From Vicinamibacterales bacterium (GTDB lineage Bacteria; Acidobacteriota; Vicinamibacteria; Vicinamibacterales; UBA8438), in NCBI GenBank assembly GCA_029940535.1, contig JAPYUM010000004.1, forward strand, positions 24,296 to 88,295: a stretch of DNA of 64,000 nt. The letters are read 5' to 3'. Shown one piece after another: positions 40,994 to 61,019 of this stretch. The notes below the pieces were generated by a model that was given only the letters and a program-made list of their open reading frames with translations, was not told the DNA's origin and did not search any database. How positions within the stretch are numbered: position 1 is the first letter of the stretch; each line of letters starts with the position of its first letter. Position numbers and translations under genes: made by a program.

Positions 40994-41155
40994 AGCAGCC
41001 CGTGGTGAAAGTCCCGATGTATTCGACCGACGCTGAATCCCGCCGATCGGCGTTGTTCATCGGTCGCATACTGCCGGTCTTCTCCCTCTTCTCGCCTTGT
41101 TCGGCGGGTCCAGCGGCGGTCTCGGTGCTGACCGGGACTTTCACCACGGACTGCT
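40994..41155. repeat. 162-bp MITE-like element with 23-bp terminal inverted repeats
   Basis: AGCAGCCCGTGGTGAAAGTCCCG (40994-41016) versus CGGGACTTTCACCACGGACTGCT (41133-41155): 22/23 complementary; internal palindrome CGCCGATCGGCG at 41041-41052. Confidence 0.75.
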
Positions 41156-41438: not shown

Positions 41439-43166
41439 TCATCCGTCGACCCGATGGCGTCGGAGCGATGCGCGAAAGGCATCGAGCGGCAGCGTATTGA
41501 GGACATCGCCAGGCTCAGCCCAGGCCCGGCGGGCGGTCGTCACCCCCCAGCGCAACAGATTGAACGCCGTGGGGGCATGCGCGTCGGTGGAGATGACGAG
41601 TTTGACCCCACGCTCGCGCGCCAGTCGAGCGTGGCTATCCGACAGGTCGAGACGATGGATCTGCGAGTTGATCTCCATGGCCACGCCGGTCCGCGCCGCC
41701 GCGTCGAACACCGGTTCGAGCTTCAGCTTGTAGGGAGCGCGTCGCAACAGGAGGCGGCCGGTGGGATGGCCAATGATGTCGACCATTGGCGACTCGATGG
41801 CTCGCAGGAGCCGGTCGGTCATCTGGTGCTCGTCCTGTCCAAACGCGGAATGGACGGACGCCACGACGAGATCGAGCTCGGCCAGGCAGTCATCGGCGAG
41901 ATCCAGGGTGCCGTCGGCCCGGATGTCACATTCGATACCGGCCAGGAGCGTGATGCCCTCGAGTGTCGAGCTCACCTCGCGAATACGTCTGGCGTGGTCG
42001 AGCGCGCGCCGCTCGTCGAGGCCGTTCGCCATCGCCAGTGCCTGACTATGGTCGGTCACCGCCAGATACTCCAAACCGGCCTCTCGGGCCGCTCTAGCCA
42101 TGGTCTCGACATCCGCCTTGCCATCGGTGGCCGTCGTGTGGCTGTGCAGGTCGCCTCTCAAGTCGGAGCGCTCGATCAAGCACGGTAGGTTCCCGTTCGC
42201 CGCGGCCTCGATTTCGCCTCGATTCTCTCGTAGCTCGGGAGGCACGTAGGCAAGACCGAGCGTCGCATAGACATCGGCTTCCGACGCGCCGGCGACATAC
42301 TCGCCGTCGGCCACGCGGAAAAGACCATACTCGTTCAACTTGAGACCGCGTCGTAGCGCGAGGTCTCTGACGGCAATGTTGTGGGCCTTGGACCCGGTGA
42401 AGTACTGCGCGGCGGCGCCCGCGCTCTCGGAGGCCACGACGCGCAGGTCGACCTGAATGCCGCCTCGCAGCAGGACGCTGGACTTGGTCGGGCCCTGACC
42501 CAGCACCCGTTCGACGTCCGGGAACCGGACGAAGTGGGGCATCAGCGCGTCAGTCGCGCCGACGGCCAACAGGTCGATGTCGCCACAGGTCTCGCACCCG
42601 CGACGCAGACTGCCGACCGGGAAGATCGTTGCGTCAGGGGCTGCGGTGCGCAGGTGCTCGGCGAGTCGCGTGGCGATCGCGTCGGCACGCCCGACCAGGT
42701 GCCGCCCGACTCGTGCCCGGTGCTCAGCCAGCGAGCGGAGCAGGAGCGCTTCCTTCTTGGCCCCCATGCCCTTGAGCTGTCGGAGCCGACCCTCGGTGGC
42801 GGCGGACTCGAGCTCGTCCAGGGTCTCGATGCCAAGCTCGCCATACAGGGTCCTCACCGTTTTCGGACCGACGCCCTGGAGTCGGAGCATGTCCAGGATG
42901 GAGGCCGGGAACTCCTGACGCAGCTCATCGAAATAGACGAGCCCCTTGGTATCGACGAGCTCGCGAATCTTCGCGGCGAGATCCTTGCCGATACCGGGGA
43001 TGCCGCGTAGGTCCGGGTCCGTCAGATCGGCGATGCTCTCCGCCATGTGGCCGACGATATCGGCCGCGTTGCGGTACGCACGGATCTTGAACGGGTTGGC
43101 GCCCTTGATCTCCAAGAGATCGCCAATGTCACTGAAGATCCGTGCGATGCCAACATTGTCAGTCAT
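41439..43166 (-). CDS. polX: DNA polymerase/3'-5' exonuclease PolX (PHP domain)
   Basis: 575 aa; helix-hairpin-helix, FPVGSLRRGCETCGDIDLLAVG, PHP domain DLHSHTTATDGKADVETMARAAREAGLEYLAVTDHS. Confidence 0.95.
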   Translation of the reverse strand: MTDNVGIARIFSDIGDLLEIKGANPFKIRAYRNAADIVGHMAESIADLTDPDLRGIPGIGKDLAAKIRELVDTKGLVYFDELRQEFPASILDMLRLQGVGPKTVRTLYGELGIETLDELESAATEGRLRQLKGMGAKKEALLLRSLAEHRARVGRHLVGRADAIATRLAEHLRTAAPDATIFPVGSLRRGCETCGDIDLLAVGATDALMPHFVRFPDVERVLGQGPTKSSVLLRGGIQVDLRVVASESAGAAAQYFTGSKAHNIAVRDLALRRGLKLNEYGLFRVADGEYVAGASEADVYATLGLAYVPPELRENRGEIEAAANGNLPCLIERSDLRGDLHSHTTATDGKADVETMARAAREAGLEYLAVTDHSQALAMANGLDERRALDHARRIREVSSTLEGITLLAGIECDIRADGTLDLADDCLAELDLVVASVHSAFGQDEHQMTDRLLRAIESPMVDIIGHPTGRLLLRRAPYKLKLEPVFDAAARTGVAMEINSQIHRLDLSDSHARLARERGVKLVISTDAHAPTAFNLLRWGVTTARRAWAEPGDVLNTLPLDAFRASLRRHRVDG

Positions 43167-43290
43167 TACTCAGACGGGGCTGCGCCCGGGCCCCACGCGG
43201 GCCCTCGCGGGGGCCCCAAAGCCCCACTCCGGTCCCGCGGGCCGCGCATTGTCGCGCGCCCTGGTTAGGGTGCTAAAAACGCCGCAGGGT

Positions 43291-43395
43291 GGTTTCCTGG
43301 CAAGCCGTTCGTCTGGCCAGGCGCAAGGAGGGAGCATGCAGGCGGCATGTGACCGACGAAGCAACGCCGCCAGGCGGACGGATCGCCAGGAAACC
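43291..43395 (-). repeat. Copy A of a dispersed hairpin element (105 bp)
   Basis: Minus strand GGTTTCCTGGCGATCCGTCCGCCTGGCGGCGTTGCTTCGTCGGTCACATGCCGCCTGCATGCTCCCTCCTTGCGCCTGGCCAGACGAACGGCTTGCCAGGAAACC; about 80% identical by hand alignment to copy B; begins on the last base of the upstream TAG stop. Confidence 0.9.
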
Positions 43396-55199: not shown

Positions 55200-56735
55200 A
55201 TGGCCTCCTGGACCCCGCGCGAGCTGGTCGAGCGGCTCCTGCGGGAGATTCTGACGAGCCGCGTCTACGACGTCGCCCGTGAGACCCCGCTCGAGACCGC
55301 CACCGGTCTCTCGTCCCGCGTGGGCGCTCCGGTGCTGCTCAAGCGTGAAGACCTCCAACCCGTGTTCAGCTTCAAGTTGCGCGGCGCCTACAACAAGATT
55401 GCGCAATTGGAGCCTGAGCGCCGCGCTCGAGGCGTGGTGTGCGCCAGCGCCGGAAACCATGCGCAAGGCGTCGCCTACGCCGCCCGCGCGCTGGACGTCC
55501 CGGCCCTTGTCGTCATGCCTCGGACGACACCGGAGATCAAGGTTCGCGCCGTTCGTCGGTTGGGGGCCGAGATCATGCTGGTCGGCGACGACTACGCTTC
55601 GGCGCAACAGCACGCCGAACAGGTTGGCGCCGAGCGTGCGCTCGAACTCGTGCACCCCTTCGACGATCTCTTCGTCGTGGCCGGACAGGGGACCGTGGCC
55701 GACGAACTGCGCCGCCAATGCCATGGGCCTCCGGGGGCCGTGTTCGTGCCGGTTGGCGGCGGGGGTCTGCTGGCCGGGGTGGCCGCCTACCTGAAGACCC
55801 TGATGCCATCCGTTCGGGTGATCGGGGTCGAGCCCGCCGAGTCCGATGCGATGTATCAGTCGCTCGCGGCCGGCCACCGGGTGACGCTCGACCATGTGGG
55901 CCTGTTCGCCGACGGCACCGCGGTGACGCGGGTGGGTGAGCTGGCGTTCACCGTTGCGACCAGTCACGTCGACGAGATCGTCCGGGTCTCTAATGATGAA
56001 ATTTGCGCGGCGATCAAGGACGTGTTCGACGACACGCGTTCGGTGGTGGAACCGGCGGGCGCGCTGGCGGTGGCCGGGCTCAAGCGATGGATGGCGACCC
56101 ATGAAGGGGGTGAGCGGCCGTTGGTGGCCATCTTGAGTGGTGCGAACATGAATTTCGACCGGCTCCGATTCGTGGCCGAGCGCGCCGAGCTCGGCGAGGC
56201 TCGCGAAGCGGTGTTTGGCGTCACGATTCCGGAACGGCCAGGGGCATTCCGGGCATTCTGCGCCGCCGTCGGTGCCCGGGTGGTCACCGAATTCAACTAT
56301 CGGTTTCGCGGCGGAGCGGACGCCCACATCTTCGTGGGGGTGGGAATCAGTTCACGCGCTGACGCGTCGGCGCTGCAGGCGCGGCTTGAGGCTGAGGGTT
56401 ACCCCGTGGTGGACCTCTCGGACGACGAGATGGCGAAGCTGCATGTCCGGCACCTGGTGGGCGGGCGGGCGGCCGGGGTGAGTCAGGAGCGTCCCTGTCG
56501 GTTCGAGTTTCCGGAGCGCCCCGGGGCCCTGCTCGAGTTTCTCGACAAGCTCGGCGGTCGATGGAACATCAGCCTGTTCCACTATCGCAACCACGGTGCC
56601 GACTTCGGCCGGGTGCTGGCGGCCTTCGAAGTGCCTGACGACGAACTCCCCCGGTTCGATGAGTTCCTGGCCGGTCTCGGCTACGCCTACGAGCTGCAGA
56701 CGAAGAATCCCGCCTACGAAATGTTCCTGGGCTAG
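55200..56735 (+). CDS. ilvA: Threonine ammonia-lyase
   Basis: 511 aa; LLKREDLQPVFSFKLRGAYNKIAQL, CASAGNHAQGVAYAA, two C-terminal ACT-like regulatory modules. Confidence 0.95.
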   Translation: MASWTPRELVERLLREILTSRVYDVARETPLETATGLSSRVGAPVLLKREDLQPVFSFKLRGAYNKIAQLEPERRARGVVCASAGNHAQGVAYAARALDVPALVVMPRTTPEIKVRAVRRLGAEIMLVGDDYASAQQHAEQVGAERALELVHPFDDLFVVAGQGTVADELRRQCHGPPGAVFVPVGGGGLLAGVAAYLKTLMPSVRVIGVEPAESDAMYQSLAAGHRVTLDHVGLFADGTAVTRVGELAFTVATSHVDEIVRVSNDEICAAIKDVFDDTRSVVEPAGALAVAGLKRWMATHEGGERPLVAILSGANMNFDRLRFVAERAELGEAREAVFGVTIPERPGAFRAFCAAVGARVVTEFNYRFRGGADAHIFVGVGISSRADASALQARLEAEGYPVVDLSDDEMAKLHVRHLVGGRAAGVSQERPCRFEFPERPGALLEFLDKLGGRWNISLFHYRNHGADFGRVLAAFEVPDDELPRFDEFLAGLGYAYELQTKNPAYEMFLG

Positions 56736-56840
56736 GTTTCCTGCCGAGGTGCCCGTCTGGACGGCGTTGCTTCCTCGGTCACAGCCGGCCTGGCTGCTCC
56801 CTCGTCGCGCCTTGCCAGCCGAACACCTCGACAGGAAACC
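56735..56840 (+). repeat. Copy B of a dispersed hairpin element (106 bp)
   Basis: GGTTTCCTGCCGAGGTGCCCGTCTGGACGGCGTTGCTTCCTCGGTCACAGCCGGCCTGGCTGCTCCCTCGTCGCGCCTTGCCAGCCGAACACCTCGACAGGAAACC; begins on the last base of the ilvA TAG stop. Confidence 0.9.
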
Positions 56841-60515: not shown

Positions 60516-60935
60516 TGCCGTTCACGCAGATCGACCACATGCGTCACGCCGACATCGACGAGCCCCTGCGCGTGGACGCCGAGCCCGGCGAGCCGCCCGA
60601 CGACCCCGGGAATTCCACGGTGAACTTCCACGGCGAGTCGAGGCGGAATGACACCCATCAGTCGACGACCGATGGGGAGGCGATGCTGCATAAGAAGGGA
60701 CGAGGCAAGGAAGCCAAGTTGGCGTATCTGGGCCACGTGCTGCTGGACAACCGGGACGGGCTCGTCGCCAATGCCTGTGTGACCCATGCGCCGAACGCGA
60801 GGCGGCGGCGATCCTGCTGGCGGCCAGCGCGCCCCCCGGCAGTACGGTCGGGGCCGACAAAGGCTACGACGTGGCGAGTTGCGTGGCGGCGGTCCGTGGC
60901 CTGGCCGTCACCCCGCATGTCGCCCAGAAGGCCCG
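60516..60935 (+). mobile_element. Degraded IS5-like transposase remnant (frameshifted)
   Basis: VNFHGESRRNDTHQSTTDGEAMLHKKGRGKEAKLAYLGHVLLDNRDGLVANACVT in one frame, then ILLAASAPPGSTVGADKGYDVASCVAAVRGLAVTPHVAQKAR in another. Confidence 0.82.
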
Positions 60936-61019
60936 GCTTGGATCTGCAGATCGTGCAATGCCTACAATTCCGTCGACTAGTCCTAGAACGTCACGGCACG
61001 ACCCGCGAAAAGCGCCTCG

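Follow-up and report, generated by a model that had tools for sequence, protein, structure and literature searches.

A dispersed hairpin element of marine Vicinamibacterales, probably MITE-like, with an IS5-type tail and a core found in other elements

Copies in the window and in the genome

The window, a stretch of 64,000 nucleotides from a contig of a Vicinamibacterales bacterium, holds two copies of a dispersed hairpin element, here called A and B, as well as a third element of another type that has the same structured core. The first G of copy A is the G of the TAG stop codon (43397-43395) of a GHMP-kinase gene, and copy B begins in the same manner at the TAG stop codon (56733-56735) of a threonine dehydratase gene. 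The third element was overlooked in a preliminary description of this DNA. The features are as follows; the bit scores are those of the covariance model R2.

40996-41153, no strand assigned: third element, about 158 nt, with terminal repeats CAGCCCGTGGTGAAAGTCCC and CTAG at its right end
41048-41099, minus strand: core of the third element (67.4 bits)
43263-43280, minus strand: decayed 3' tail of copy A, GTTTTTAGCACCCTAACC (consensus GTTTTTCAGCANCCTG followed by CTAG, an IS5-type terminal repeat)
43291-43395, minus strand: copy A, a 105-nt hairpin beginning at the stop codon of the GHMP-kinase gene
43317-43369, plus strand: structured core of copy A on its better-folding strand, with three tandem G.A motifs (75.3 bits)
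56735-56840, plus strand: copy B, a 106-nt hairpin beginning at the stop codon of the threonine dehydratase gene
56762-56814, minus strand: structured core of copy B on its better-folding strand (77.1 bits)
60565-60936, plus strand: decayed fragment of an IS5-type transposase gene, 91% identical in DNA to an insertion sequence (IS) in the relative G105

The preliminary description had aligned A on the minus strand with B on the plus strand at about 80% identity, and a global alignment gives 87 identities in 107 columns (81%). Folding returns the structure that had been proposed for both, one long imperfect hairpin each with a 9-bp outer end and a 5-bp inner hairpin. From dinucleotide shuffles one would expect 0.01 occurrences of the core string in the window, where there are two. 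That the two copies belong to a dispersed family was correct as well, since in the genome to which the window belongs (4.83 Mb) a search with the covariance model R1, capped at 150 scored candidates, finds at least 141 matches at E<=1e-3, and further copies lie in related genomes. With BLAST, copies are up to 98% identical and their flanks are unrelated, and the core pattern with at most two mismatches occurs 161 times in comparison with two occurrences of a reversed control. The element is non-coding, 105-135 nt long and present in many dispersed copies, as is expected of a miniature inverted-repeat transposable element (MITE).

Among named relatives the exact core is found in metagenome-assembled genomes labelled Acidobacteria or Vicinamibacterales, and in one bin labelled Chloroflexi (CAJWER010000188.1), which has a near-typical copy; this label is probably a binning error or reflects a shared marine sample. 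At two loci (L089, 1439-1760, and L106, 5695-6068) two or three copies of the element follow one another head to tail, a few to about 55 nt apart, and certain downstream flanks in the organism's own genome resemble decayed second copies. Directly beside copy A lies a dispersed repeat of another kind, rich in G+C (GGGGC...GCCCC, 43161-43265); it has copies of 89-92% identity in the relatives G135 and G105 and also stands beside other copies of the element.

Insertion sites and stop codons

Six relatives with intact synteny have no element at site A, and five have none at site B; only short spacers separate the flanking genes there. The closest empty site for B reads GGCTAG-CTGG where the window reads GGCTAG-GTTTCC (the hyphen marks the junction). 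Since both sites are empty in relatives, as would be expected for a MITE, copies A and B are most simply insertions in this lineage. CTAG or TA, as a duplicated target might leave, stands on both sides of several copies with a tail, and related core-bearing elements show the like; at A and B a duplication is not visible, and site B has no CTAG on its right side. In G127 we looked for a clean empty and filled pair of high identity and found none, the cases there being one shared insertion and decayed sites. In one comparison (G127:C62:45615-45672 with G000:C161:74678-75036) the relative retains only GGTTTCCTGT joined to TGGCAGGAAAC, the middle of the hairpin having apparently been deleted.

The copies are placed in a very regular way. 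A TAG stands within 6 nt upstream in 77 of the 110 full copies with flanks, against 2.2% of random 8-nt stretches, and the tetranucleotide is CTAG in 54 of these, GTAG in 13, TTAG in 7 and ATAG in 3. This is the YTAR target of the IS5 family, mostly in the form of CTAG, from which the GTAG and ATAG copies deviate if it is read strictly. The upstream gene points toward the element in 78 of 102 scorable copies, and among these 78 its stop codon is TAG in 69, a TAG stop lies 1-5 nt before the second G of the element in 65, and in 46 the spacing is exactly such that the last letter of the codon is the first G of the element. As a background, TAG accounts for 94 of 229 stops in comparable DNA, and 32 of 104 CTAG sites outside coding sequence are stops, figures that come from crude gene calls (ORF length and codon-position G+C) and include some CTAG sites that are ends of the element. 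The pattern fits insertion at YTAR sites and survival where genes remain intact. The copies would then be found mainly where the site is a stop codon, the first G of the element restoring TAG so that the upstream gene is unharmed; an active preference for gene ends could give the same picture. At two loci in other acidobacteria (L361 and L364) core-bearing elements seem to sit between convergent genes, both of which would have their stop codon in the repeated CTAG or TTAA.

Fold, strand preference and covariation

The hairpin has a clear preference for one strand. The preliminary description drew the strand that folds worse in 104 of 106 copies (mean -56.2 kcal/mol, against -67.3 for the opposite strand), and with DNA parameters this is the case in 97 of 106. 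For copy A the energies of the opposite and the drawn strand are -66.4 and -54.3 kcal/mol, and for copy B -69.1 and -52.8 kcal/mol. On the opposite, purine-rich strand most C.A mismatches turn into G.U wobbles. The fold as drawn is thus present, but on the strand that folds clearly worse. The internal strings reported as nearly invariant are likewise conserved, but instead of being loose single strands they lie opposite one another on the other strand and form three tandem G.A motifs, in a core with the layout GGCGC[GA]N[GA]GG[GA]GCANNC-loop-GNNTGT[GA]CC[GA]N[GA]GC[AAC]GCC. Five of the six G.A mismatch positions are conserved at 97-100% in 80 copies, and the sixth (39-75) varies. A K-turn was considered and found unsupported, the 3-nt bulge lying two base pairs from the G.A motifs.

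The four double changes noted between A and B are confirmed, and across the 80 copies covariation is seen at the same pairs of columns: pair 15-95 (GC 48, CG 20), pair 16-94 (CG 73, UA 6), pair 51-63 (GC 49, UA 29) and pair 52-62 (CG 40, GC 39). The single pair between two G.A motifs is GC in 52 and CG in 23 of the 80, and when no structure is assumed only three column pairs have higher mutual information. In total 24 of 40 pairs have changes on both sides, and covariation scores 0.214, compared with 0.085+-0.004 for shuffled alignments, which lose relatedness so that the scores are not probabilities, and at most 0.077 for slid controls, which keep it. The suggestion that selection acts on a folded structure is in this way supported.

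A covarying stem-loop with a conserved internal motif is also what characterizes structured RNAs in Rfam, and the core might be a functional RNA transcribed from the purine-rich strand and dispersed by MITEs. The one-strand preference with its G-U wobbles, the covariation that includes an isolated pair, and the conservation of the sequence across families with different arms all speak for it. On the other hand its promoter and transcript would be hypothetical, single-stranded DNA can form a hairpin with G.T and tandem G.A mismatches just as well, and more than 100 copies per genome would amount to many redundant genes, so that we consider a functional RNA of this kind rather unlikely. At the gathering score no Rfam family was found over the window, and a permissive threshold around copy A gave matches only at E 0.16-3.9.

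A structure of use to the host, i.e. a transcription terminator or a stabilizer of mRNA 3' ends that is kept directly after stop codons, would be in line with the very stable hairpin and with the fact that most copies directly adjoin a stop codon on the same strand. Three observations make it less likely: the sense strand gives the poorer fold, relatives do not share sites A and B, and in symmetric core-bearing elements (see below) the core occurs in both orientations relative to the gene. An intrinsic terminator is further unsupported since no U-run follows directly 3' of the stem. Of the explanations weighed here we regard a host signal as the least probable. We think instead that one strand of the core, folded as single-stranded RNA or DNA, would serve the element and not the regulation of host genes.

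Tail, transposases and the core in other elements

Many copies extend past the hairpin by a tail of about 25 nt that ends in GTTTTTCAGCANCCTG followed by CTAG, and the hairpin together with this tail makes up the long form of the element. The tail is recognizable in 38 of 110 copies, in comparison with 0.14% of shuffled flanks; none was recognized 3' of the hairpin of copy B. The same sequence is the terminal inverted repeat of a complete 1.3-kb IS in G105, which has CTAG on both sides and encodes a transposase of 358 amino acids that scores 275 bits against an NCBIfam IS5 cutoff of 140. For the E. coli IS5 a duplication of Py-T-A-Pu, in most cases CTAG, has been reported (PMC5493358). The element shares both its target and its flanking sites with IS5-family ISs and the MITEs derived from them. 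It differs from them in bearing the repeat of the IS at one end only, with a left end (TA-GGTTTCC) that is unlike the IS5 repeat and makes the ends asymmetric, and in having a conserved structured middle. The decayed fragment at 60565-60936 is the sole close relative of the G105 transposase gene found in the organism's own genome, where no intact partner transposase was found, and the copy-rich relatives G127, G129, G050 and G090 have no match to a transposase of the G105 type. The left end unlike the IS and the lack of a match in some copy-rich relatives are weak points, and that IS5-superfamily transposases mobilize the element in trans is for this reason an inference. Elements of the IS630 type duplicate TA at CTAG, and IS630 as mobilizer was dropped in favour of IS5 after the complete IS in G105 had been found.

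The proposal of an undescribed element family holds in the sense that the Rfam comparison matched nothing, that the core sequence was not found in the papers searched, and that no title or abstract on MITEs or palindromic repeats in Acidobacteria was found to describe it. As a kind it is known, the IS5-type ends placing it with MITEs; a named family to which it belongs was not found.

The core is not confined to the 105-nt element. Distant matches in the order are elements of about 160 nt that have several different terminal-repeat sequences and the same core inside, as does the third element of the window, and an IS with the terminal-repeat type of that element is present in G105. A core-only alignment of 16 sequences, ten of them from other element types, gives a covariation score of 0.362 against 0.132+-0.019. 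In a survey of 396 genomes sampled across the phylum Acidobacteriota, with strict filters by which weak matches are lost, the core was found in 47, including families outside the order and some with many copies. Many of the core elements examined are bounded by CTAG, TTAG, TTAT or TTAA, several of them with a matching site on both sides (for example CTAG at L351, L361 and L369, TTAT at L360 and TTAA at L364), and many begin flush at a TAG or TAA stop with the core in either orientation. In one core-bearing element (L357) the terminal repeat at one end differs from that at the other, as though an exchange of ends had taken place. A second type of IS, 1471 bp long and with three copies in G105, has the terminal repeat of one type of core element; its transposase is IS1182/IS5-like and below the NCBIfam cutoffs. 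A search with R2 found the core in neither of the two full ISs. As neither has the core and the repeats differ among elements, it is the ends that vary and the middle that is conserved. Plasmid and phage collections had no match to the core, nor had viral contigs to the strict core pattern.

Directional placement 3' of nTAG, a long imperfect hairpin with strand-specific structure, high copy number, tandem arrays, and a copy B that lacks CTAG on its right side are also features of REP-like elements, which a Y1 (RAYT or IS200-type) HUH transposase moves as a one-strand hairpin of single-stranded DNA and inserts 3' of a TAG tetranucleotide without target duplication. REPs and REPINs are, like our element, extragenic, of high copy number and hairpin-forming, with a TAG tetranucleotide at the 5' foot (PMC3733652, PMC3116915, PMC2817692), but REPs measure 20-40 nt as compared with 105 nt. 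No linkage to a RAYT was found: Y1 genes do not track the element in 149 genomes of the order and are absent from the copy-rich G127, G090 and G079, and the single Y1 gene of the organism's own genome has no adjacent copy. Other elements with the same core moreover have symmetric ends with an identical 4-bp site on both sides, e.g. CTAG/CTAG or TTAA/TTAA. Mobilization by a Y1 transposase is for these reasons unlikely.

The 105-nt hairpin is probably a non-autonomous, MITE-like element of marine Vicinamibacterales that inserts at YTAR, is moved in trans by IS5-superfamily DDE transposases and has a structured core serving the element. The purine-rich strand of the core is predicted to form a hairpin with three tandem G.A motifs, and this core is a module common to elements with different ends across Acidobacteriota. 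A bolder idea, which we put forward tentatively and would not expect to hold in full, is that this module of about 50 nt is selfish and phylum-wide, that it works as RNA or single-stranded DNA through a conserved trans-acting partner, and that it has acquired the ends of several different IS5-superfamily transposons, each of which could spread it, and finds shelter at stop codons.

MITEs are usually regarded as leftover ends of transposons, the middles of which are unimportant. A conserved middle between variable ends implies a function for the centre, and the one-strand hairpin with tandem G.A motifs is a concrete structure that can be tested. The placement at stop codons shows a route by which an element that targets CTAG can multiply to more than 140 copies while the genes of a compact genome stay unbroken.
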